Positions 2,980 to 48,895 of a stretch of 48,958 nt of DNA are shown here, in pieces. The notes under the pieces were generated by a model. That model had not been told where the DNA came from and ran no database searches. It worked only from the letters and a program-made list of their open reading frames with translations. This stretch comes from Nitrosomonas sp. Nm166 (lineage in GTDB: Bacteria; Pseudomonadota; Gammaproteobacteria; Burkholderiales; Nitrosomonadaceae): assembly GCF_900112825.1 (NCBI RefSeq), contig NZ_FONE01000023.1, positions 1 to 48,958 on the forward strand, read 5' to 3'. Each line of letters begins with the position of its first letter. Within the stretch, counting starts at the first letter, position 1. The translations under genes and the position numbers were made by a program.

Positions 2980-3756
2980 TCACGTTTCTCTTTTCGAACC
3001 GGATTTACGGGGTCCATGCTGCATCACTTCTGGCATGCGGATAGCAAAACCATTCGGATAGCGCAAATCTACATATGCTAACGACCCTTCCTGATTAAAT
3101 CGGGCAATGCTGTGGTTATATACTGAAACATAGCGAATAAGCCTTTCTTCAACTTCATTGCGCCCTAATTCCAGCACAGTTCCAGTATTTAACTGAATGC
3201 GCCATGCATAGCGTGGAGTTAGACTGATCTCCACAATAGATTGTTGTAATGGTGTCAAGATTTCGCTGAATCGCTGGTATTGCCGCGCTACTTCTTGTGC
3301 ACTCGCCTCTTTAGGTCCGGTAAAAACAGGTAAATTTTTATCTACTGTGACGCGAAATACTTCGCCATAGGTATTAACTAATGCATGACTCCCCCAATAG
3401 GCCAATGCCTGATGCTCTTCAAGTATTACATTCAAACCATAGGGCCACTCCCTGTTCACTTTGGCATCACGCACCCAAGGTAACTTTATAAAAGCTTCGC
3501 GCACTTCAACGAGATTCACTGAGATGAAGTTTCCTTTAATTTCATTTCTGGAAAGGTGCTCTATTTGCTCGCGAGTCACATTCAGCAAATCTTTAGCATC
3601 AGTTTTCGTACCATTCACAACTTGAATATTAATTTCTTTAATGGGAAAGAATGGTGGCTTGGTAAACCGCAAGCTGATCGCATACAAAACCGTTACCGCT
3701 ACTAAAGTAAACAAGCTGGTGGAGAGTAAATTGAGCGCCCGATGGTTATTCCACAT
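2980..3756 (-). CDS. ftsQ: cell division protein FtsQ
   Basis: FtsQ is the bitopic inner-membrane scaffold that links early and late divisome proteins through FtsB and FtsL. At 258 residues it has a short cytoplasmic N-terminus, one membrane segment at about residues 10-28, a POTRA domain starting near [15 protein letters not shown], and a beta domain ending near [15 protein letters not shown]. The basic C-terminal tail (PRKSGSKRE) is typical of betaproteobacterial versions. Its start overlaps the end of ddl by 11 bases, which indicates translational coupling. Confidence 0.95.
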
Positions 3757-8174: not shown

Positions 8175-9331
8175 ACAGTAAGCCCTCGCAAGCGCTGACG
8201 ATTTTCCCAATCAATGCGCAACAATACCGCCAAAGCAATACAATTTGCCGTGATGCTGCTACCGCCAAAACTCAGCAAAGGCAGCGTTAAGCCTTTAGTC
8301 GGCAAAACGCCCATATTGACGCCCATATTGATCAATCCCTGCAAACCGATCCAGATACCAATTCCTTGCGCTACCAAGGCGGAGAAGGGATATCCCAGTT
8401 TCGCAGCCAGCCGACCGATAATAAAAGCGCGCAAAATCAACCCGATAAATAAAGCAATGACCGCAACAACGCCAACAAAACCAAGTTCTTCAGCCAATAC
8501 CGAAAGCAAGAAATCGGTATGCGCTTCGGGCAGATAAAATAGTTTTTCGACACTTCCTCCCAAGCCAACACCAAGCCATTCACCCCGTCCAAATGCGATC
8601 AGCGCATGACTCAATTGATAGCCCTTCCCATAGGGATCGGCCCAGGGATCCATAAATGCCACCACTCGGTCCAACCGATATGGCGAAGTTAGAATTAATC
8701 CATATAAACCGGCAGCGAGGATACTGATCAGTCCAATAAATATTTTTAAACTGACCCCTCCCAGAAATAGGATAGATATTGCCAGCGTCGTTACTACAAA
8801 AAAAGCGCCGAAATCCGGTTCCAGTAACAATAAAAAACCTACCAAGGCCATTACAAGGGTGATTGGAAGAAATCCTTTCAGCAGATAACTCAAATCTGCT
8901 GTCTTACGATTCACATAGTCAGCGGCATACAGGATCATCACCAATTTCATAAATTCAGACGGTTGCAAATTCACCACATACAGTGAAATCCAGCGTTGGC
9001 TGCCATTGACTTCATGACCAATGCCTGGAACTAAAACAAGCACCAACAATAAAGTGCTCGCGATAAACAGATAGCTGACATACCTTTGCCATACCTGCAG
9101 CGGGACCTGAAAAGCGATGAATCCCAATATCAACCCCACAGCCAGATAGATACTGTGTCGTAATAAATAATGATAAGCACGATCAACACCAAATTGTGCT
9201 TCTGCAATCGCAATGGAGGCGGAGTAAATCATGACTAATCCAATACTCAGCAACAGCAAAGTCGACCACACCAGCACCTGATCAAAGTCAGTCATCACCC
9301 TTGGTTTCTGATTGTTTGCTTGGTAGATCAT
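8171..9331 (-). CDS. ftsW: SEDS peptidoglycan glycosyltransferase FtsW
   Basis: FtsW is the septal SEDS-family polymerase that works with FtsI. The 386-residue protein has about ten hydrophobic segments and the family signatures [29 protein letters not shown] and, near the end, [13 protein letters not shown]. The first membrane segment begins after a short cytoplasmic tail. The stop overlaps murG, and the start lies three bases after the murD stop codon. Confidence 0.96.
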
Positions 9332-9334
9332 CCG

Positions 9335-10747
9335 TTAATGTTTCTTCTGTCCGAAACTAAAAAATCTATTTTCAATGTCCTTGACCGCTGCTACAAACAC
9401 TTCTGCGCGGTGAATGTAATTTCTAAACATATCGAAACTGGCGCATGCAGGTGACAGCAATACCACATCGCCACCATGCGCCAATAAAAAACTTTTCTGC
9501 ATGGCTTCCTCCATCGTGACCGCAAAATGCAAAGGCACGCCGCAGTCTTTCAGTTCATCCGCAATGAGCCCTGCATCTCGGCCAATCAACACCACCGCTC
9601 GTGCATTATCAGCAACAGATTGCTTCAAAAGAGAAAAATCCTGACCCTTGCCATCACCGCCAGCAATTAAAATCACGTTCTGTTTCATGCCATTTAAGGC
9701 TGCCACTGTCGCACCTACATTCGTGCTTTTGGAATCATCATAGAAAGTGACACCATTGAACGCCGCAACCTTTTCCATTCGATGCGGTAAGCCTCTAAAC
9801 TCCCGTAAAGCTGACAGTAGCGGCTCAACCGCTACCCCCAGTGCACGACATATGGCCAGTGCTGCCAAGCCATTGGCGGCATTATGTAATCCATTCACAA
9901 CCAATTCGGAAGTTTTCATTAATTGCATATCTCCTTCCGTCAGCCATAAATCATCCTCATCACGGATAAGGCCAAAATCTGCTTGGGTCGGAGGCTCATC
10001 AATACCAAAAGTGATTTGCTTTCTACTGCTCAATGCCACAGCACGAACCAATGGATCGTTCCGATTTAAGACCTGTATTCCCTCATTTTTTTCATGCAAA
10101 AAAACTCTGGCTTTTGCCGTGGTGTAATCTTTCATATTCGCATAGCGGTCTAAATGATCTTCACTCAGATTAAGCACTGTAGCCACATCTGCATTTAAAT
10201 TATGGGTGGTTTCCAATTGAAAGCTGGATATTTCAAGAATCCAAGCTTGCGGCAAATTGCCTGCATCCATGCGTTGCATCAGCGCATTCAGAACGGCCGG
10301 GCCAATATTGCCTGCCACTTCCACATTCCAGTCCGCTTTTTTCAGCATCGCCCCTACCATGGCGGTGACTGTTGTTTTTCCATTAGATCCCGTGATCGCA
10401 ACAATCTTCGGTCGAGGCAAATTGCTCTGCTCAAGCGCCCACGCAAAAAGAACCATGTCGCCGACCACCGGTATGCCACGCTGAATGGCCTGCTGCACGC
10501 AAGGATCCGCCAAGGGAACACCAGGGCTGATTGCAATCATCTCGATATCATCAAAAATTCTGGCCTCAAACTTGCCTATGTGAACCTTCAACTGAGGAAA
10601 AGCATTCGCGATTTCCTTCCACCCAGGCGGCTCTGTACGACTATCCGCCACACGCACTTCCGCGCCCTGGCGGGATAACCATTTCATCATGGACAAGCCA
10701 GTTTCACCCATCCCCAACACCAATATTATTTTACCTTCCAGATTCAT
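9335..10747 (-). CDS. murD: UDP-MurNAc-L-alanine--D-glutamate ligase MurD
   Basis: MurD adds D-Glu to UDP-MurNAc-L-Ala in the cytoplasm. The 470-residue product opens with an NAD-like fold ([17 protein letters not shown]), has the ATP loop [18 protein letters not shown] near residue 118, and a ligase C-terminal domain with [16 protein letters not shown] and [11 protein letters not shown]. Its ATG overlaps the mraY stop as ATGA. Confidence 0.96.
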
Positions 10748-11829
10748 CTTAGTTTTAATGTCGATAATCCAAACAGCACCAGAATGAGCGTAATAATCCA
10801 GAATCTGACCACTACCTGATTTTCTTTCCAGCCTTTCAATTCATAATGATGATGCAATGGCGCCATGCGAAAAATACGCTTACCCAGCAATTTGAAGGAA
10901 GCAACCTGCAACATCACCGATAACGCTTCAACGACAAACACTCCCCCCATAATCACCAGCACAATTTCCTGACGCACAATAACAGTGACAACACCCAACG
11001 CAGCACCCAAAGCGAGCGCACCTACATCCCCCATAAACACTTCGGCCGGATAGGCGTTAAACCACAAAAAAGCGAGCCCTGCGCCTGCCAGCGCGCCGCA
11101 AAATATGGATAGTTCTCCCGTATTGGGGATATAAGGAATTCCCAGATACTTGGCAAATACAACATGCCCTGTGGCATAGGCAAAAACTGCCAGTGCACTG
11201 CTGATCATGACTGTGGGCATAATCGCCAAACCATCCAATCCATCAGTCAGGTTCACTGCATTACTGGTGCCAACGATGACAAAATAGGCCAATATGACAA
11301 ACCCTGTCACTCCCAATGGAATCGCTACTTCCTTAAAAAACGGCACAATCATATCTGTCTGGGCTGACATTTCAGCAGTCAAAGCCAGGTACACCGCAAT
11401 GATGATCGCGATCACGGATTGCCAAAAAAATTTGGCGCTCGCGGACAGCCCTTTCGGGTTGCGATATACCACTTTCCGATAATCATCGATCCAGCCAATT
11501 GCCCCAAACCCCAGTGTAGTCAGCAACACCACCCAAACGTATCGATTACTTAAATCGGCCCATAACACAGTCGTCAATACCATTGACATCAATATCAGTG
11601 TACCCCCCATGGTGGGTGTTCCCGCTTTCACAAGATGTGTCTGTGGACCATCATCACGCACTGACTGGCCGATTTTATAAGCAGTCAATTTGCGGATCAT
11701 CATTGGACCAATGATGAAAGAAATCACCAGTGCTGTGAGGACAGCCAACATAGTACGCAAGGTGATGTAACTGAACACATTGAAGGCACGAATATCCTGA
11801 GCCAGCCATTGAGAGAACGCTAACAGCAT
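10744..11829 (-). CDS. mraY: phospho-MurNAc-pentapeptide transferase MraY
   Basis: MraY moves phospho-MurNAc-pentapeptide onto undecaprenyl phosphate to form lipid I. The 361-residue integral membrane protein shows [11 protein letters not shown] near residue 70, IDDYRKV, the catalytic [13 protein letters not shown] segment near residue 195, [15 protein letters not shown], and the histidine cluster [13 protein letters not shown] near the end. It begins 46 bases after the murF stop, one of the few real gaps in the cluster. Confidence 0.97.
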
Positions 11830-28689: not shown

Positions 28690-28852
28690 TTTTAGGTTCA
28701 ATTGATTTATTGGATTCAGAAATTCTATTTGCAGGTGTGGCGGGTAACATTAAGTTCTGAAAAACTCGTGGAAATTAGTTCAATATCATGATTTAAAATC
28801 CAAATTATATCACTCTGCACAGCTAACCTGCTTCTGACCGTGCAAAGATCTC
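28690..28852 (-). mobile_element. left end of a decayed IS5-type element
   Basis: The outer end CCGTGCAAAGATCTC (28838-28852) is, but for one base, the reverse complement of GAGACCTTTGCACGG at 48490. Reading inward on the minus strand comes a TGATATAAT promoter-like block, then a transposase start SFSELNVTRHTCK whose ATG has become ACG, quickly followed by stops. It is a second, more decayed copy of the element at the window's right end. Confidence 0.7.
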
Positions 28853-29114
28853 AAGATAATGGACAGGTGGAAGTTTATTTGGTATACCAGCCAATTAAAC
28901 CAAATCTTTTCTCACATTAAATTGGTTCCTATCAATCATATGTGAACAGCCAGTAAAAAGCGGGATTGGTTATGATTCGAAATGGCAATACTGTACACAG
29001 CATCCGATCTGGTACAACCATGAAACATTCGAAAAACATAGAATGACAATTTTTGAAAATAATTAGCAACTTGCAGTAATCAAAAGGAATAGGCTTAAGG
29101 AAAGGTATAACAGT

Positions 29115-30731: not shown

Positions 30732-31424
30732 TTAAGTAATTGTTGGGGTAGATTGAATCTGAGTTGAAATCTTTTGAGAGTCTGAGAATTTACTTATTAC
30801 TCGATTCCAAGCTTCTCCAAAGACACTCAGCATTACTCCACCCATTCCTGGTTCTATCGAATAAGAATCTTCCTGAGGAGCTAAATGAGAATGATATTTA
30901 CAGATGTGCTCTAATGCATTGTCGTAAGAGTCAGGATCCAATTTATCCAGAGAATAAGTACACAGAAAAGTGAGTTCTTGTGTACTGGTTAAATTCTTCC
31001 AAAAACCTTCTAGCTGTATAGCCATATCGTGCTGGTCCTGTTTCCAGAGAATATCAACCATTTCACCAAAAGCACGTGCTTTTTTATAATTTGATTGAGC
31101 GTTATATATCGGAGCTGCTACATATTCCTGAAACACTTTTTCTTCAAGAATTCCATCAGATATTAAGTTCGATAGCAGAAATTCAGCATCGAAGAATTTT
31201 ATTTGATCTTGATCTTTAAGAAATTGTCCATCAAAACAAAGCGCATCCATTTTTGATTTTAAAATTTGTCTCAATGCGGGTTTAGCTATCACAATAACTG
31301 CTTCTTCATTGAGTAAACCATCTTTGATGTAACCTGTTACTAAATCAACCTGAGAGCTCTCATTGAGACAAATTTGTACAGTATGATTGCCTGATGAATT
31401 TGTTAACTGCCTTGTTTGGTTCAT
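30732..31424 (-). CDS. MEDS-domain protein
   Basis: The 230-residue protein resembles the MEDS sensory domain (first described in DcmR and methanogen/methylotroph regulators). It has HTVQICLNESSQVDLVTGYI, then GLLNEEAVIVIAKPALRQIL, and later a FGEMVDILWKQDQ segment, the usual order for the fold. It has no DNA-binding or kinase domain, so it may act as a stand-alone ligand-binding or partner-switch protein. I prefer the ATG at 31424, with AAAGAGG just upstream, over the one at 31439. It lies next to the Cas9 remnant. Confidence 0.75.
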   Translation of the reverse strand: MNQTRQLTNSSGNHTVQICLNESSQVDLVTGYIKDGLLNEEAVIVIAKPALRQILKSKMDALCFDGQFLKDQDQIKFFDAEFLLSNLISDGILEEKVFQEYVAAPIYNAQSNYKKARAFGEMVDILWKQDQHDMAIQLEGFWKNLTSTQELTFLCTYSLDKLDPDSYDNALEHICKYHSHLAPQEDSYSIEPGMGGVMLSVFGEAWNRVISKFSDSQKISTQIQSTPTIT

Positions 31425-31565
31425 AAAGACCTCTTTCATATCTATATTACCTTTGAGGAGTAATAGCTATTTAAAAATTAGACAATACGCTGATATCGAC
31501 AATTTTATTTTACTCAATACGTTGAGCATATCAGGGAAACGCTTGAATTTTTCTAAGGATAACTA

Positions 31566-32225
31566 TTAGATGGTATTGGCCACTATCATCCAGTGTCGCG
31601 AAAAAGGTAGGATGTGTTCGATTTCTACTTCGCCACTCAACAGCATAGTTGCGCTGATCGGGATACCTGAATAGAGACATTTCCGGTCGGAAGCATTATT
31701 GCTAAGTTCCTCCCACAAAATCATTTTCTCAATGTCATCACGGCTTACAAGTTCTTCAATAATCTGCAAGATACCCGCAATTTCTTTCGCAACCGTTGGT
31801 TACGTTTCTGATTGCACTGTGGGGTTGGCGATTTTGTCGTGACATTTTTCAATTGGATCTTCCGGTTTGCCGCTGCCAAAACTAACATAACGTTGCAGAT
31901 ACTCGCCATAGTCAATAACTCCTTATGAATGCTGAATTCTTAATTTCACCTGAATCCTGGTAGATATTTCCGGTTTTGAAAGTGATGCCGGGAATATTTG
32001 AAGCGAGTCGACTGTGATGTCAAAGCCAGCGGCTTGTACGGTCTTGTCATAAGCAATCGCGTCACGGCGCAACTCTGGCAGAATGCGCTGCAGTGCTTTT
32101 ATACATAAGCTGACGTAACTTGGCTGCAACCCAACATTTGCGATACGCTCTACAGTGGCTTCATCAACAAGGCAATACAAAAAAATGTGCACCTCGCTTT
32201 GATAACGCATAAAGCTGCTGATCAC
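31566..32225 (-). pseudogene. decayed cas9 fragment (type II, likely II-C)
   Basis: Minus-strand frames reconstruct the middle of a Cas9. Upstream is ATVERIANVGLQPSYVS and CIKALQRILPELRRDAIAYD, the helical region before RuvC-II. Next, in another frame, comes DYGEYLQRYVSFGSGKPEDP and IEKCHDKIANPTVQ. After a deletion come EIAGILQIIEEL and DDIEKMILWEEL, then the HNH core DRKCLYSGIPISATMLLSGE followed by VEIEHILPFSR with the catalytic histidine. It ends at a frameshift that turns the expected RTLDDS into RHWMIV. RuvC-I, the end of RuvC, and the PAM-interacting domain are missing, so it cannot work. Confidence 0.8.
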
Positions 32226-32430
32226 CAGCCAACCCTCATTGCCCAGCCAACTGAAGTTGCCCTAAAAAGTGCCAGGCGATAGGCGCACTCTTATATGCTT
32301 TCTATATGATTTTATTAACTATTTTATAAGGTGCTATCAGAATATGCAACGAAATAGTTATTGGGATTTTTACTCTGGACGCTAACAACCAGAAGATGCA
32401 CCCAGTTAAAGGGGCGCTATAAGCGACCTC

Positions 32431-32875
32431 TTATTTTCTGGATGTTCTGATAAACCTGGACAAATGATTCAACAATTCATTTTCTTTATAAGGCTTACCT
32501 AGAAATACATTGACCCCTAGATCCTCAGCAATTTTCCAATGTTTTTCTGCGCTACGCGATGAGATGATGACAATCGGAACATGAGCTGTTTCCGGTTTGG
32601 CGCGCACCTTCTTGATCAATTCAAAGCCATCCAGTTTAGGCATTTCCAAGTCGATCAGCATGAGATCGGGAGTAGTCTCCTGAAGTATTTCGAGGGCTTC
32701 CGCACCATTCTTTGCAATCATCACCGCAGCCTTCGCGCTCCAGCAGGCGGCAAGTTACTTTACGCACTGTCAATGAATCATCAACTACCATAACGGTAGG
32801 TACCGTAACCGGTTTTTTTCGAGCGGAAACAGCTAATTCAGGTACAGGCGTATTGGAACGCTTGTTGTGCATCAT
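32431..32875 (-). pseudogene. frameshifted receiver domain of the CheA hybrid
   Basis: Two frames together encode a complete response-regulator receiver domain. The first (32875-32636) has TVMVVDDSLTVRKVTCRLLE; the second (32724-32431) has NGAEALEILQETTPDLMLID, where the phosphoacceptor aspartate lies, then MPKLDGFELIKKVRAK and the lysine region FLGKPYKENEL. They break at GAAGGCTGCGGTG, where two bases appear to be missing, and the first frame is itself out of phase with the upstream CheA gene. Ancestrally this was the C-terminus of that protein. Confidence 0.8.
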
Positions 32876-35800
32876 TGCGTTGCAGTAGCTTAACCGGATT
32901 CATAATCAGAATAATTTCACCGCCACCGGTAATGGTGGCGCCTTCAATACCTGGCGCCTGGGAAAGTTGCGGTCCAGCATGTTTGACGACGACTTCAGTG
33001 TTACTGATCAGCTCATCGACATGTATGGCAAGATAATGGGTGCCGCTATGCAGAAACAATACCTGACTGCGCTGAGTGACTGGAATATGATTGAACTCGC
33101 CCAATAAATGGGACAGATGAGAAAACAGATATGTTTTTCCATTAAACGCAACGCGATAATCCTGGTAAAGCTTTTTGAAGGCCTCAGAATCGAATTCTCG
33201 ATTGTGTTCGACGATGAAGGCAGGAATGGCATAAATTTGTTTTCCGGCACGTACCATCAGTGTCTGTGCCATAGACAGCATGAGCGGCAGATAAATCGTG
33301 AAAGTAGTTCCTTGATTGGGAACAGATTGAACACTGATGCGGCCGCCCAGCATCGAAATGTCATTCTTCACGATGTCCAGGCCAATGCCGCGGCCAGCGA
33401 TTCCGGTGATGGAATCCGTTGTCGATAAGCCTGGCATGAAGATCAGCGACATGGTTTTGTCATCATCGAGCGCTTCATTTGCTTGAATCAAGCCAAGCCG
33501 CTGCGCTTCTCCGCGAATACGCGGCAAATTCAGGCCATAGCCATCATCACTGACGGTAATGACCACTTCATTGCTTTCCTGGCGCAGATGGACAGTAACT
33601 TGCCCGGTCTGCGATTTTCCTGTTTGTAGCCTCTGCGCCGGTTCTTCGATGCCATGCGCGATTGCATTACGCAGCAGATGTTCCAGCGATGGATTAATTT
33701 CTTCCAATACATTGCGGTCGATTTCAACTTCCATACCTTGGATTTCCAGATGGGCTTTTTTACCCAAATCTTCCGTTACTTGTCGGGCAATGCGGTAATA
33801 GCGCTCGGCATAATTGCTAAATGGGATAGCGCGGATTTGCAGCAGAGACTGCTGAAGATGGCGGTTGATTATGGATTGCTGCATGATCGCTTCTTCAGCA
33901 ACAAGATGTGTCGTGCGCAAGCTCTCTTGCACGGTGATAATGTCATCGATACTTTCGGCCATCAGCCGTGTCAGCTCCTGAAAGCGGGTAAAGCGGTCAA
34001 ATTCGAGCGAGTCAAACGCATGCTCGTTTTCATGCTGTTGCGCAAGGTGCGATTGCATCTGCGTTTCCGCCTGGATCTCCACTTCGCGTAACTGGTCGTG
34101 CAAGCGGTGCGTACTTTCAGCCAGATCTTGCAACGACTGTTTAAAGTGATTGAGTTGCGCCTCAATTTTTGAACGCAAAGCAATGACTTCACTGGAATCA
34201 TTGACCAGGGAATCCATGAGCTCGGAATTAATGCGTAAGGTTTTTGATTGAAGCGGATCAATGTTGTCCGAGGTGTGAGCAGCCATAGCTATTACAACTT
34301 GCTTGGCTGCAGTCGGCGATAGCTTATTGCGCTGAAGCTGCTCAATCTTGCTAATGATGATGTCAAATTCACGCTCCAACTGATCCAGCGCTGAATCGGG
34401 CATATGATGTTTGCGGAAAGCTGATTCAACGTGACTTTCCATGGCATGAATCAATGCACCCAAGTGTAAATCCCCAGTCATGCGGGCGCTGCCTTTCAAG
34501 ATATGCAACAGCCTCAGTAACGTCCGGTGAATGTCTTCGTCCTGCGGCAACATGCGCCAGGCGCGTAATTTACTATTAATCTGTGGAAGAAGGTCCTGCG
34601 TTTCCTCAAGAAATACCGGAAGTAATTCTTGATTGATCTGATCTTCCACATCCAGGCCAGATTGCGCAGGTAATAGAGGCTTAAAGAACGCTGCAGCAGC
34701 TGCTGATTCTATGGGTACTGCTGGTTTTTCAGGTGGAATTTCAACAGCAGTCTGGTGTACATCTTCAGGGATGAATTGTGTATCAGTTTGCGTTTCGCTA
34801 ATTGATTCTGCAGTAGTGGTTATTGATGTCGCCAGTGCACTTGTTTTAGGTAGCAAAGCGATTTGAAATAACGCGATGGCTTCTTCGATAATCTGATCGC
34901 TGTCAGATTGTCCGCTTTTGAGCGACTCAATGAAGAAACCGAGGCTGCTTAAACCGTCCACGAGCAGAATTTGCTCTGCCTCTATGATTTCATAGGAGGG
35001 TTCCAGTAGCTTTTCTATCAGACTTCGGCAAAGATCCAGTAAGGTATTGGCACGCTCCAGATCCAGCATGACCAAGGCACCGGAAATTTGCTGGAATAAG
35101 GTGGAAAGTGCGGATAATTCTGAGCGTTTGGAAGGCTCAAAGAAGAATTGGTCCAGAATATTTTCAATCTGTCCCAGATTAGTCAGAATTTCTTGAGCAA
35201 CTTGTGCGAGTAATAGTTTTTCCTGCGCTCTGCTCTCTATCGCATTAAATGCCAGCGTATATTCACCGGCACTTTGGTTCGTGATCTGGTGCAAGCGAGA
35301 AGCCAGGGCGTCAATCTGCTGTGGCAGATCCGGCGATAACTTGGCGAAATCATCAATAATACTTTCAATTAGTAGCAAAGCGGTAGCCATTTCCATAATC
35401 AGTTCTTCGCTCATGTCCTGAGGATGGGCATGCAAATCAGTGACAGTGCTACTAATGATATTGATTAATTTTTCTAATGGCGCACATTCGGTTTGTTGTG
35501 ACAAATGTTTAAGCCAGTCGATATATTCCAGTAATGATGTCAGACTTTCCTGTTGTCCTGTACAAAATTCTCGCCAGATATCATTCGTCTGCATCAGGAT
35601 ATTACGCAACTGGTCCAGTATGGGCTGCAATGTTTCCGATTGTTCCAGTGTCAGCGTATCTGTTTCTGCTAGCTGTCCCGGCCAGGCATAGCTGCGCTTG
35701 ATGTCAGTAATGCGTTGGCTGGCTGATTCGCTGTGCGCGATGTGGTAAAGCAATTCGCGTATCAGTGTTGCGGTACTGTCAGGTGTGCCCGCAGCAAGGC

Positions 35801-36545
35801 GACGGATGGCTTGCTCAATTTTTCCGCATAAACGGCGAATCGGGAGTTCAATTTGATCGCCTTCTTGCTGCAGCAGATTTTCCAGAAAACCAGCCACTAC
35901 CCACCAGAAAGCCCGTTCTTCGGTAGTGCCGGGAAATGTCTCGATGTGATTCACTGCGTCTGCCATCTGCTGCAAGCCATCTTTATTAGATGGATCACGC
36001 AACCACTTGAGCAAGCCAGTCTGATATTCGGCACCCATCTGTTTGGCTGAAATCTTCATTGCATCGGCATTCATATGCACTGATTCAGCTTTCAGCGCCG
36101 GGCTTACCGTGAGCCGGGGGAAAAATAAATCGCTTTCCGGGGCGTTCTCGAACCCATATGCCTGCATCAATTCACGATAAGCCGGAAACAGGCGCAGCGG
36201 ATTTTCTTCCTTGCCGTCAATGAGTTCATTCAGATAGTAGAGTAATGCTTTATTGGATTGTTTCAGCGTCTCACAAATCTGGGCACTGGACGCTATTTTC
36301 TTAGTGAGAAGTGCTTCGATCAACTGTTCCATCTTCTCACTGACCAGCGTAATGCTGCTTAATCTCAGCATTTCAAGCAAGCCGTTCAGTTGATGAATAT
36401 AATGCTTGCAATCTCTGATCGGAGTAATTTTATCCGGATGCTTGCTATAGGCATCCAGATTCTGATCAATTAAGGAGAAGATTTGATAAATACCTTCCTT
36501 GATTCCAATAATCGAAGCAATATTCAGTTTGGATCGAGCGGTCAT
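32838..36545 (-). CDS. CheA-type hybrid kinase, PilL/ChpA family, C-terminus lost
   Basis: This 1235-residue histidine kinase resembles the sensors of type IV pilus chemosensory systems. The N-terminal half holds degenerate helical Hpt-like repeats. One true Hpt has HILKGSARMTG (phospho-His about 679). The kinase core shows LLRNAIAHGIEEPAQRLQ (N box, about 957) and GRGIGLDIVKNDISMLGGR (G box, about 1048). A CheW-like domain runs to the end. It stops at 32838, just before a receiver domain in other frames, so a frameshift has removed its own output. No pilG, pilH, pilI or pilJ genes are next to it. Confidence 0.88.
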   Translation of the reverse strand: MTARSKLNIASIIGIKEGIYQIFSLIDQNLDAYSKHPDKITPIRDCKHYIHQLNGLLEMLRLSSITLVSEKMEQLIEALLTKKIASSAQICETLKQSNKALLYYLNELIDGKEENPLRLFPAYRELMQAYGFENAPESDLFFPRLTVSPALKAESVHMNADAMKISAKQMGAEYQTGLLKWLRDPSNKDGLQQMADAVNHIETFPGTTEERAFWWVVAGFLENLLQQEGDQIELPIRRLCGKIEQAIRRLAAGTPDSTATLIRELLYHIAHSESASQRITDIKRSYAWPGQLAETDTLTLEQSETLQPILDQLRNILMQTNDIWREFCTGQQESLTSLLEYIDWLKHLSQQTECAPLEKLINIISSTVTDLHAHPQDMSEELIMEMATALLLIESIIDDFAKLSPDLPQQIDALASRLHQITNQSAGEYTLAFNAIESRAQEKLLLAQVAQEILTNLGQIENILDQFFFEPSKRSELSALSTLFQQISGALVMLDLERANTLLDLCRSLIEKLLEPSYEIIEAEQILLVDGLSSLGFFIESLKSGQSDSDQIIEEAIALFQIALLPKTSALATSITTTAESISETQTDTQFIPEDVHQTAVEIPPEKPAVPIESAAAAAFFKPLLPAQSGLDVEDQINQELLPVFLEETQDLLPQINSKLRAWRMLPQDEDIHRTLLRLLHILKGSARMTGDLHLGALIHAMESHVESAFRKHHMPDSALDQLEREFDIIISKIEQLQRNKLSPTAAKQVVIAMAAHTSDNIDPLQSKTLRINSELMDSLVNDSSEVIALRSKIEAQLNHFKQSLQDLAESTHRLHDQLREVEIQAETQMQSHLAQQHENEHAFDSLEFDRFTRFQELTRLMAESIDDIITVQESLRTTHLVAEEAIMQQSIINRHLQQSLLQIRAIPFSNYAERYYRIARQVTEDLGKKAHLEIQGMEVEIDRNVLEEINPSLEHLLRNAIAHGIEEPAQRLQTGKSQTGQVTVHLRQESNEVVITVSDDGYGLNLPRIRGEAQRLGLIQANEALDDDKTMSLIFMPGLSTTDSITGIAGRGIGLDIVKNDISMLGGRISVQSVPNQGTTFTIYLPLMLSMAQTLMVRAGKQIYAIPAFIVEHNREFDSEAFKKLYQDYRVAFNGKTYLFSHLSHLLGEFNHIPVTQRSQVLFLHSGTHYLAIHVDELISNTEVVVKHAGPQLSQAPGIEGATITGGGEIILIMNPVKLLQRNDAQQAFQYACT

Positions 36546-36613
36546 GACGGTAAATTGGTTTTGATTACAGTGATACCAGTTGTCAGTCTTAATTTAGAAA
36601 ATTGTTCTTCCAT
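36542..36613 (-). CDS. 23-residue ORF coupled to the CheA gene
   Basis: The frame starts at an ATG preceded by GGAG seven bases away and encodes a short peptide beginning MEEQFSKLRLTTG. Its TGA overlaps the CheA ATG as ATGA. The CheA gene has no ribosome site of its own, so this frame probably drives its translation by coupling. It could be the last piece of a deleted upstream gene. Confidence 0.4.
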   Translation of the reverse strand: MEEQFSKLRLTTGITVIKTNLPS

Positions 36614-36783
36614 TGGGCTTCTCCAGACACAGCACTCAAAAAGGGCTTATCGATGCTTGAATTCTTTAATGGCAACGACTTGGCGAGTGACAGCATAGTC
36701 GCTCAAGCTGGTAGTCAAAAACAGAATAAAACCTGAAAAATAAGGTCTTTTAAGTGCTGAAGTTTCTGCTAGATAAGCAATGA

Positions 36784-38295
36784 TTAGGCAAGAAATAATT
36801 TGTAAGCGGGATTCTTGGTTTCCTCCCAATAGCGATAGCCTAATTGCTCCAGGAATGTTCTGAAGTCGGATTTTTCCTCCGGCGGCACCTGAATACCGAT
36901 CAATACGCGGCCATAGTCAGCGCCATGGTTACGATAATGAAACAGACTGATGTTCCAGTTATGGCTCATGTTGTTCAGGAAATTCATCAATGCACCAGGA
37001 CGATCGGGAAATTCAAAACGATAAAGAATTTCATTGTTAACTTTATGCGCCCGCCCGCCGACTAAATGGCGGATATGTAGTTTAGCCATTTCATTGTTGC
37101 TTAGGTCTTCGGTCGCCAAACCACTTTGTTTTAATTCGCTGATCAGTTGCTGGGTTTCCTCCTGATTGCGCACCGATACGCCAACAAAAACGTGCGCTAC
37201 TTTTGGATCGGCGTAGCGATAGTTAAATTCGGTAATACTTTTGGCACCCAGTAAATTACAGAACTTCTTGAAACTGCCGGGCTGCTCTGGAATCGTCACC
37301 GACATCACTGCTTCGCGCTGTTCACCGATCTCCGCGCGTTCGGAAATATGGCGCAAGCGGTCGAAGTTCATATTCGCGCCGGAGGCAATAGCGACTAGTG
37401 TTTTATGCAGGATTTTTTCACGCGCCACATACGCTTTGACGCCGGCGATCGAAAGCGCGCCGGAAGGCTCCAGAATCGTGCGCGTATCTTCAAACACGTC
37501 CTTGATCGCCGCGCAAATAGCATCGGTATCGACCAGAATCACTTCGTCGACCAGTTCGCGGCATAAGCGGAAGGTTTCCTTGCCCACGTGACGCACTGCC
37601 ACACCATCCGCAAATAAACCCACTTGCGCCAGTTTGACACGGCGGCCGCTTTGCAGCGAACGGTACATGGCGTTCGCATCGATCGGCTCGACACCGATCA
37701 CCTTGATCTTTGGATACAACCGTTTCACATAAGCTGCAATGCCGGCGATCAATCCCCCGCCGCCAATTGGTACAAAAATGGCGTGAATAGCGCCTGTATG
37801 CTGACGCAGAATTTCCATGCCAACCGTTCCCTGGCCGGCAATCACATCCGGGTCATCATAGGGATGAACAAAGGTAATCTGCTCTTCTTTGGCTAGTGTG
37901 ATCGCGTGTTCATAAGCGTCGTTATAAGAATCACCATGTAATGCAACCGTTGCACCATGCCCCATCACCGCATGCACTTTGATTTGCGGCGTGGTAACAG
38001 GCATTACAATGGTGGCGCTACAATTCAATTTCCTGGCAGCGAGCGCTACGCCTTGTGCATGATTACCGGCGGAAGCCGCGATCACCCCGCGATTGCGTAC
38101 CGCAGGCGATAACTTGATCATCTTGTTATATGCGCCGCGCAGCTTGAAAGAAAAAACCTGCTGCAAATCTTCCCGCTTCAACAATACCTGATTATGAATG
38201 CGCTCAGATAAATTGATGACATGATCCAGAGGGCTTTCGATTGCAACATCATACACCTGAGCGGTCAATATTCTTTCAAGATAATTGTTTTTCAT
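36784..38295 (-). CDS. ilvA: threonine ammonia-lyase, biosynthetic (IlvA)
   Basis: IlvA is the PLP enzyme that deaminates threonine to 2-oxobutanoate, the first step to isoleucine. The 503-residue length fits the long, feedback-inhibited form with two ACT-like regulatory domains. PLP lysine is in VFSFKLRGAYNK (Lys51), the phosphate-binding glycine loop in PIGGGGLIAGIAAY. The two regulatory repeats begin near VMSVTIPEQPGSFKKF and LYRFEFPDRPGALMNF. It is a single gene, with sbcB 163 bases upstream on the same strand. Confidence 0.96.
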   Translation of the reverse strand: MKNNYLERILTAQVYDVAIESPLDHVINLSERIHNQVLLKREDLQQVFSFKLRGAYNKMIKLSPAVRNRGVIAASAGNHAQGVALAARKLNCSATIVMPVTTPQIKVHAVMGHGATVALHGDSYNDAYEHAITLAKEEQITFVHPYDDPDVIAGQGTVGMEILRQHTGAIHAIFVPIGGGGLIAGIAAYVKRLYPKIKVIGVEPIDANAMYRSLQSGRRVKLAQVGLFADGVAVRHVGKETFRLCRELVDEVILVDTDAICAAIKDVFEDTRTILEPSGALSIAGVKAYVAREKILHKTLVAIASGANMNFDRLRHISERAEIGEQREAVMSVTIPEQPGSFKKFCNLLGAKSITEFNYRYADPKVAHVFVGVSVRNQEETQQLISELKQSGLATEDLSNNEMAKLHIRHLVGGRAHKVNNEILYRFEFPDRPGALMNFLNNMSHNWNISLFHYRNHGADYGRVLIGIQVPPEEKSDFRTFLEQLGYRYWEETKNPAYKLFLA

Positions 38296-47846: not shown

Positions 47847-48218
47847 ATGTTAGCAACTATCCGCCCGTTTTTAATGCTTCTGATAATAAGCTTATTTTTT
47901 ATTATGAGTACTTCCGTCTTTGCGGAGTATGATAAAGAAAAAAAAGATGCCATGCATAAAGAATTTGACGAGTTGTCTGAGTCAAACAAAAATTTAACAG
48001 TAGATAAACAAGCAGAAACCCTAGGTACTCACAAGGTGCAAGAGAAATTGCATGATAGAGAAGATTCAGCGCACACCTCAGAATCAGCTAAACCCCGAGA
48101 TCAAGATAGAGCCGGAAAAACCGTCGAGGAAAAACGTGAAGTGCACTCAGATGGGCCCCGTGCCGATCCTGCAGAGGATTCCCCCTTAGAAACACAGAAG
48201 CCTGTTCCTTTGAAATAA
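47847..48218 (+). CDS. secreted highly charged protein
   Basis: The 123-residue product follows ATGAGGAGA. It has a signal peptide (about residues 1-26, ending STSVFA before EYDKE). The mature part is almost all charged or polar: EYDKEKKDAMHKEFDELSES at the start, EDSAHTSESAKPRDQDRAGK in the middle, a Pro-rich end. It is probably disordered in the periplasm. No family is known to me. Confidence 0.65.
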   Translation: MLATIRPFLMLLIISLFFIMSTSVFAEYDKEKKDAMHKEFDELSESNKNLTVDKQAETLGTHKVQEKLHDREDSAHTSESAKPRDQDRAGKTVEEKREVHSDGPRADPAEDSPLETQKPVPLK

Positions 48219-48306: not shown

Positions 48307-48489
48307 GTTGGGATTTTTCTACTTTTATCACATCTAAAAAATCCTTAAGTTTAATTTAACTTCGCATTAATATTTTTGCCAATCAGTGCTTCATGCTCTC
48401 AGATCGGCAGGCCTCGCGAACCTTGCCGGGCCCTTGTATTAATCCCTTCTTTTGGATTTCAGAACAGCCATCGCGATTTAATATTTCTC

Positions 48490-48895
48490 GAGACCTTTGC
48501 ACGGCAGAAAGTGCATTCAATTGCATGGAATGATATAATTATGTTTTAAATCATGTAATTGTAGTAATCGCCATGAGTTTTTCAGAATTTGATGTCACGC
48601 GCCGTACCCGCAAAGGAAGTTTCTAAACCAGATAGCTGAATTGATTGACTGGAAACCGATAGAAGAAGCGATAGCACAGCATTATTCGCCAGCATCGGAT
48701 GTCACCGGTCGCCGGCTTATCCTGGATTGCTACTGTTCAAGATGCTGCTGGTGGGGATATGGAACGGTGGTTGAGTAGATGAGTCGATGGAAGACATGGC
48801 GAACTCGAATCTGCACGTGATGCGTTTTTTAGGATTGTATCTGGAAGACGATGTGAGGGACTTATTCCAATTACAGATAGAAACAGTAATAATAT
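48490..48895 (+). pseudogene. decayed IS5-family element, left end and transposase start
   Basis: The end sequence GAGACCTTTGCACGG (48490-48504) is followed by a TGATATAAT promoter-like block and a transposase ATG at 48573. The frame reads MSFSEFDVTRRTRKGSF, then a one-base loss stops it; other frames go on with LNQIAELIDWKPIEEAIAQH, TGRxxYPGLLLFKMLLVGIW-like and VMRFLGLYLEDDV sequence. It is an IS5-group element, dead, and matches the remnant at 28690-28852. The 180 bases before it hold nothing I recognise. Confidence 0.78.

Follow-up and report, generated by a model that had tools for sequence, protein, structure and literature searches.

Does a short, broken stretch of cas9-like sequence, with no CRISPR array beside it, mark the place of a lost type II CRISPR-Cas system, and if so, what else of that system has survived? 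The stretch in question lies in a window of 48,958 nucleotides (the whole length of DNA analysed here) from Nitrosomonas sp. Nm166, which is part of contig C112 in a 3.2-Mb genome of 126 contigs, rated 99.95% complete with 0.06% contamination. A first-pass annotation had read positions 31566-32225 as the relic of a lost type II system. Our analysis supports this reading: a cas9 remnant, a decayed tracrRNA remnant adjoining it and, in two genomes of the same genus (G028 and G029), an intact cassette at the same site are directly seen. The extent given was too narrow, since the relic spans about 31583-32436. We regard the locus, with near certainty, as what remains of a type II-C CRISPR-Cas cassette (tracrRNA, cas9, cas1, cas2 and array) that once lay directly behind a CheA-like kinase gene with a REC domain, here called chpA-REC (the chpA-type name is our assumption), and that was lost. 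The kind of loss is ordinary and the preservation of the example is good. The cas9 relic itself is an instructive case of ordinary CRISPR-Cas loss; some novelty lies in the repeated survival of a tracrRNA without cas9.

Anatomy of the cas9 relic

Both sequences that had been assigned to the central part of a Cas9, EIEHILPFSR of the HNH core and the block YGEYLQRYVSFGSGKPEDP, were found on the minus strand and belong to Cas9. The 67-aa ORF carrying the HNH motif (31566-31769) matches Pfam HNH_4 (E 1e-8) and NCBIfam cas_Csn1 (E 7e-11, the sole match at E up to 0.001), and its PDB matches with E no greater than 1 are Cas9 without exception (23 of 23); the only other Pfam match is GmrSD_C, at E 0.16. 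The first-pass annotation had named a better score for a non-Cas9 family, such as IscB or a free-standing HNH endonuclease, as fatal to its call. No such score was found for this ORF in Pfam, NCBIfam or PDB, and the Cas9 call stands. The 100-aa ORF at 31923-32225 matches no family in Pfam or NCBIfam, its best PDB match being BlCas9 (E 0.06), and only the comparison with close relatives secures its assignment to Cas9. When the Cas9 of G029 was compared by tblastn with 2.5 kb of the window, residues 398-640 gave one collinear match (E 2e-49, 46.5% identity), and a search of the whole genome with the G039 Cas9 matched the relic at E 5.4e-27. A second HNH_4 match in the same genome lies on contig C125, within a separate 220-aa ORF.

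The cas9 pseudogene, of type II-C, extends over 31583-32281 on the minus strand; its alignment with a Cas9 of the same genus covers residues 9-44 and 398-640 of the latter (Table 1). RuvC-I, thought to be gone, has left a remnant in the N-terminal piece, where YRLAL-FRATSVGWAM, with the DLG lost, aligns with YRLALDLGATSLGWSM. Taken alone this piece is weak at the protein level (tblastn E 0.059); at the DNA level it matches the start of the G029 cas9 at E 4e-5 and the G039 sequence, over 32180-32435, at E 1e-31. Next to it a deletion of about 1.05 kb has removed Cas9 residues about 45-393, that is, most of the recognition lobe, as the first-pass annotation had proposed. The three frame segments that it described were sound as to disruption and not as to frame: by tblastn and DNA alignment the relic runs mostly in one frame, interrupted by two TAA stops, small indels that compensate one another in net, and a second deletion of 0.14 kb, which took RuvC-II. 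The central piece breaks off inside the HNH domain, EIEHILPFSR and a TLDDS in shifted frame being the last parts of it to survive. As had been noted, neither RuvC-III nor the PAM-interacting domain is present, and instead of an open frame of about 1000 aa the relic offers ORFs of 67 and 100 aa. Under our assumed assignment of catalytic roles to the RuvC-I DLG, RuvC-II, RuvC-III and HNH motifs, the full catalytic set of a Cas9 is absent: the DLG is lost, RuvC-II is deleted, RuvC-III is absent and the HNH domain is truncated, presumably after its histidine and before the region of the catalytic asparagine. With these losses, the locus should cleave no DNA.

Table 1. Features of the relic and its immediate surroundings (positions in the window)
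Feature	Position	Strand	Basis
Dispersed repeat (probably IS end), abuts cas9 truncation	31501..31582	.	Matches on own contigs
cas9 relic, central piece, residues about 398-643	31583..32168	-	tblastn; DNA alignment to 31583; genome search
In-frame stop TAA	31800..31802	-	Sequence, tblastn
Junction, ~143-bp deletion taking RuvC-II	31812..31814	-	DNA alignment, about L052:8637 joined to 8781
In-frame stop TAA	31923..31925	-	Sequence, tblastn
Junction, ~1.05-kb internal deletion	32169..32179 (approximate)	-	Ends of the two protein matches; DNA alignment to G039 cas9
cas9 relic, N-terminal piece, RuvC-I remnant, DLG lost	32180..32281	-	tblastn, residues 9-44, frame -3
Conserved intergenic stretch, tracrRNA to cas9 start; presumed tracrRNA promoter side	32299..32351	+	blastn, alignment
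tracrRNA relic: anti-repeat, nexus hairpin, intrinsic-terminator hairpin	32352..32436	+	Alignments with relatives, fold, covariance model
Anti-repeat core	32359..32377	+	Position and alignment with relatives
CheA-like kinase with REC domain (chpA-REC), synteny anchor	32431..36545	-	ORFs, Pfam, relatives

The repeat that abuts the broken end of cas9 has copies elsewhere in the genome: 31501-31577 match contigs C96 and C123 at 86-87%, 31556-31580 match C96 once more at 96%, and on C123 a DDE_Tnp_1 transposase lies just before the copy. The IS-rich patch that had been proposed for this region was not established; a single dispersed repeat, probably an IS end, adjoins the break. Past it lies an open MEDS-domain gene (30732-31439), which is matched in 18 of the 85 genomes of the genus, its own included, and has four further matches in its own genome (C103, C45, C90 and C47), one of them with a stop. 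Further away, 28698-28856 and 48486-48644 hold two copies in inverted orientation (74% identity) of a repeat that one end of C123 matches as well, probably a transposon remnant. On the other flank, the nearest relatives have chpA-REC as a single ORF (about 1500-1545 aa), which in the window is reduced to a 1235-aa ORF and frameshifted REC pieces; the whole locus may be decaying. Within 32431-36784 of the window, a gene of about 700 aa that stands between an ilvA-like gene and chpA in G090 (708 aa, L122 1303-3429) is missing.

Intact cassettes in related genomes

Searches for cas9 covered 81 genomes (own included) with the cas_Csn1 profile and 85 genomes of the genus with the G039 Cas9. An intact Cas9 of the relic's subfamily was found in seven genomes (G027, G028, G029, G039, G098, G110 and G116), and a different, more distant cas9 in G011, G018, G048 and G088. 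G039 has in addition a second cas9, of the other kind, at C7:52132-56219, which is split by about 1.4 kb between profile positions 1-720 and 723-834 in an insertion-like manner. The intact cassettes comprise cas9, a type II cas1, cas2 and an array, with no further cas gene observed between them, which is the make-up of type II-C; profiles run on the G039 genes identify its Cas1 as type II (TIGR03639, E 2e-70).

The relic is tied to these cassettes by its collinear Cas9 homology, by the same flank and junction, and by a tracrRNA with an anti-repeat, now decayed. In G028 (L050) and G029 (L051), chpA-REC, tracrRNA, cas9, cas1, cas2 and array stand at the site of the relic, and window positions 32299-34000, from chpA through the tracrRNA, align to both genomes in one piece by blastn. 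A cassette-free site is found in G020, where 9506-11774 and 8723-9491 match G029 6488-4232 and 13751-12985, respectively. The two G029 flanks lie there within about 15 bases of each other, so that G029 has about 6.5 kb extra exactly at the site. Beside trpG (a name given by eye), G110 has an intact cassette and G011 keeps the tracrRNA only; at a third site, G039 is intact, and what is left in G104 is the tracrRNA with a single decayed repeat (L117 6752-6785). By chpA, the closest genomes to that of the window are G090, G108, G020 and G008; none of them gave a match to the cassette, so that more than one order of gain and loss would fit. One genus offers three states of the site, without cassette, occupied and decaying, which makes a well-anchored snapshot of CRISPR-Cas9 loss. 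The window copy shares its Cas9 subfamily and tracrRNA with the intact type II-C cassette of Nitrosomonas MAGs (G039 and G028) and its chromosomal site with that of G028 and G029; unlike the intact cassettes, it is fragmentary, carries stops and deletions, and has neither cas1 nor cas2 nor array.

How might the cassette have been lost, and when? It may have stayed functional until fairly late in the lineage of the window; deletions and point mutations would then have cost its cas9 the open frame, the recognition lobe and RuvC-II. The 3' portion of the gene would have gone along with cas1, cas2 and the array in an event whose edge is now the dispersed, probably IS-derived, repeat. At second codon positions the window and G039 differ by 0.136 (184 codons), compared with 0.065 and 0.076 for two intact pairs of comparable third-position difference and 0.103-0.115 for two pairs that are more divergent, which speaks for decay. 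The dN/dS ratio is 0.10 between the relic and G039 and 0.08-0.14 against six intact genomes, intact pairs giving 0.05-0.11. The ratio of the relic would still be low because most of the divergence predates the loss; synonymous sites are near saturation, and the age of the loss is therefore poorly constrained. We read the timing as a late loss, with this latitude in its age.

The tracrRNA relic and rival explanations

In the intact genomes, the strand opposite to cas9 carries, in the interval between the upstream gene and cas9, an anti-repeat matching the array repeat, along with a small GCTAACAAGC hairpin and a terminator hairpin rich in GC. The first-pass annotation had seen no tracrRNA-like sequence here; alignment, position and our covariance model R1 reveal a decayed tracrRNA, which adjoins the cas9 start and points away from cas9, as in the intact relatives. 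The fold of 32352-32440 has a z-score of -2.56. Model R1 gives it 74 bits (E 1.6e-13), a match that is partly by construction, the window being among the seven sequences of the model. Its anti-repeat core has the top CRISPR-repeat-like score in the window, 30, the next being 28 at two unrelated places (48066-48093 and 3060-3081). This score is not significant window-wide, as 6 of 60 Markov sequences reach 30 (six shuffles, a more lenient null, peaked at 24-26), and the anti-repeat is thus not claimable from the score alone. On the same figures, a CRISPR repeat or array remnant in the window was rejected. The proof of the tracrRNA relic is its alignment and position, rather than a plain repeat search. 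The duplex of the anti-repeat with the relatives' repeat has an energy of -26.1 kcal/mol in the window, versus -43.9 in G029 and -39.9 in G039. Rfam, run on L001, L050 (G028) and L051 (G029), gave no tracrRNA-type match and one chance match, and plasmid and phage records had no DNA match to 31470-32450.

How often does a tracrRNA of this kind stand without cas9? R1 was built from seven sequences, those of the window and G011 included; G098, G104, G110 and G116 were left out, so that their matches are independent. It matches 12 of the 85 genomes of the genus, namely the seven with an adjoining intact cas9, the window, G011, G104, G003 (found at a contig end together with 21 N-terminal Cas9 residues) and G035. 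The last match (35 bits) was set aside, being without anti-repeat and looking like a terminator alone. Among 399 genomes analysed from the order, R1 finds 13 with a match at E 1e-4 or better, ten of them outside the genus; cas9 adjoins nine of these ten, and the tenth (G277) is at a contig end. Besides the window, then, a tracrRNA without adjoining cas9 occurs among the 85 genomes in G011 and G104, each at a site of its own and different from that of the window. Since the window was selected as a relic, it does not enter the tally, which is two of nine evaluable loci of the genus (seven intact; G003 and G035 dropped). On another of its contigs, G011 carries a cas9 of the distant kind. Protein searches give no cas9 match in G104, a case where a tracrRNA covariance model can flag a lost type II locus that such searches fail to find. 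Between its decayed repeat and its tracrRNA, G104 carries a 95-aa ORF (L117:6875-7162) that has no match in Pfam and whose start, by eye, resembles a signal peptide.

Do such tracrRNAs outlive Cas9 by chance or for a reason? The window adds a test case to this question. If they were kept for a cas9-free function, as a small regulatory RNA or as the terminator of chpA, one might expect what is seen in part: a tracrRNA lacking its cas9 persists in three of the 85 genomes, each time at a site of its own, the window copy has not lost its fold, and the G104 copy, at 94% to G039 against 78-86% for its flanks, is nearly intact. We counted broken invariant columns against three sets of presumed-intact controls: all 17 tracrRNAs (eight from the genus, including the contig-end-cut G003, and nine from outside it with cas9), 13 of them (the eight and five of the nine outside copies), and the eight of the genus alone. 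With 17 controls, the window breaks 6 of 37 columns, G011 breaks 5 and G104 breaks 1, versus 0-4 for the controls when each is left out in turn; with 13, the figures are 7 of 48, 7 and 1, versus 0-4; with the genus alone, 8 of 59, 9 and 2, versus 0-3 except for G027 (7 of 66). The three sets point in the same direction, and in each the counts for the window and G011 exceed those of all controls; the contrast is smaller with the genus-only set, where G027, whose intact tracrRNA diverges most, comes close to the window. Add to this the lost pairing energy of the window anti-repeat, the fold of the G011 copy, no better than shuffles (z -1.05), and the near-constant company of cas9 outside the genus. 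These comparisons, above all the 6 of 37 columns against 0-4, favour decay over retention for the window tracrRNA, and we consider retention for a cas9-free function quite improbable. A broader reading, that the tracrRNA tends to remain when the mobile II-C cassette is lost and that at least one nearly intact copy (G104) may serve another role, strikes us as doubtful.

As to the cas9 pieces, could they be something other than a Cas9 decayed in place? That the 67-aa and 100-aa ORFs are open and the HNH motif recognisable speaks for a nuclease of IscB type or a free-standing HNH nuclease, or else for a small protein derived from Cas9 that has taken on a new use. However, the HNH ORF belongs with Cas9 or Cas9-type HNH_4 families and approaches no other except GmrSD_C, at a poor E-value; its domain is cut after the histidine, stops and frameshifts lie between the pieces, far-apart Cas9 regions remain collinear, and the tracrRNA is where one would expect it. 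The chances of this reading are close to nil. Frameshifts in the neighbouring chpA-REC gene could hint at an assembly or sequencing artefact of an intact cas9, but indel errors cannot give kilobase-scale deletions or missing cas1, cas2 and array, and the genome is rated 99.95% complete with 0.06% contamination; an artefact is exceedingly improbable. Finally, the cassette occupies several different sites in the genus and is thus mobile, so a cas9 fragment might have been transferred into the site already broken; the chpA junction, though, is collinear at base level with the intact G028 and G029 cassettes, and such an arrival is very unlikely.

Degeneration of type II CRISPR-Cas in Francisella is reportedly the subject of a published study. 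Isolates of S. pyogenes seem to have lost the array or the locus (PMC6546361). Loss of a type II system is common to all three cases, whereas the window remnant is pinned by synteny and includes a tracrRNA, and two other genomes keep a tracrRNA without adjoining cas9. The orphan CRISPR2 of Enterococcus faecalis is described as an array able to use Cas9 supplied in trans (PMC4894674). There, as here, a part of a type II system persists without cas genes of its own; that part is an array in E. faecalis, versus a tracrRNA and scraps of cas9 in the window. The literature covered, some of it in excerpts, yielded no account of a tracrRNA left behind after cas9 loss, a weak absence given that two central tracrRNA papers lie outside this coverage.

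Absent parts and other CRISPR-Cas loci of the genome

The first-pass annotation had reported no array, cas1 or cas2 in view, and none was found in the window, where tblastn of the G039 Cas1 and Cas2 gave nothing at E up to 1. Its suggestion to look elsewhere in the genome turned up neither an intact cas9 nor a matching CRISPR repeat: with up to three mismatches, the II-C repeat occurs zero times in the own genome (more decayed repeats would be missed), and the same search, covering 49 genomes, counts 59 in G027, 15 in G028 and 27 in G029. The assembly being in 126 contigs, a piece of the array could be missing from it. Cas1 matches number seven, at six places, none of them on the contig of the window. 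Four of the six places (all but C82:2042 and C93:7821) were typed, one as I-C, one as I-E and two as generic; on the type II profile the latter two reach 71 and 76 bits, where the cut-off is 120. The adjoining type II cas1 and cas2 and the array with cognate repeat that go with a functional type II-C system are thus absent at the relic.

The genome nevertheless retains a type I-C locus with an array (C47) and a type I-E locus with an array (C24), so that it has probably not abandoned adaptive immunity altogether. A block of five ORFs occurs twice, on C24 (L227 868-7604) and C82 (L228 9161-15861); each copy ends in a Cas1 (435 or 438 aa) with a zinc-finger-like N terminus (by eye) and includes an ORF of about 1000 aa, and one of the two abuts the type I-E genes. 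The block may be a Cas1-bearing mobile element. It may or may not correspond to the stand-alone cas1 island that has been reported from Nitrosomonas sp. AL212 (PMC4046053).
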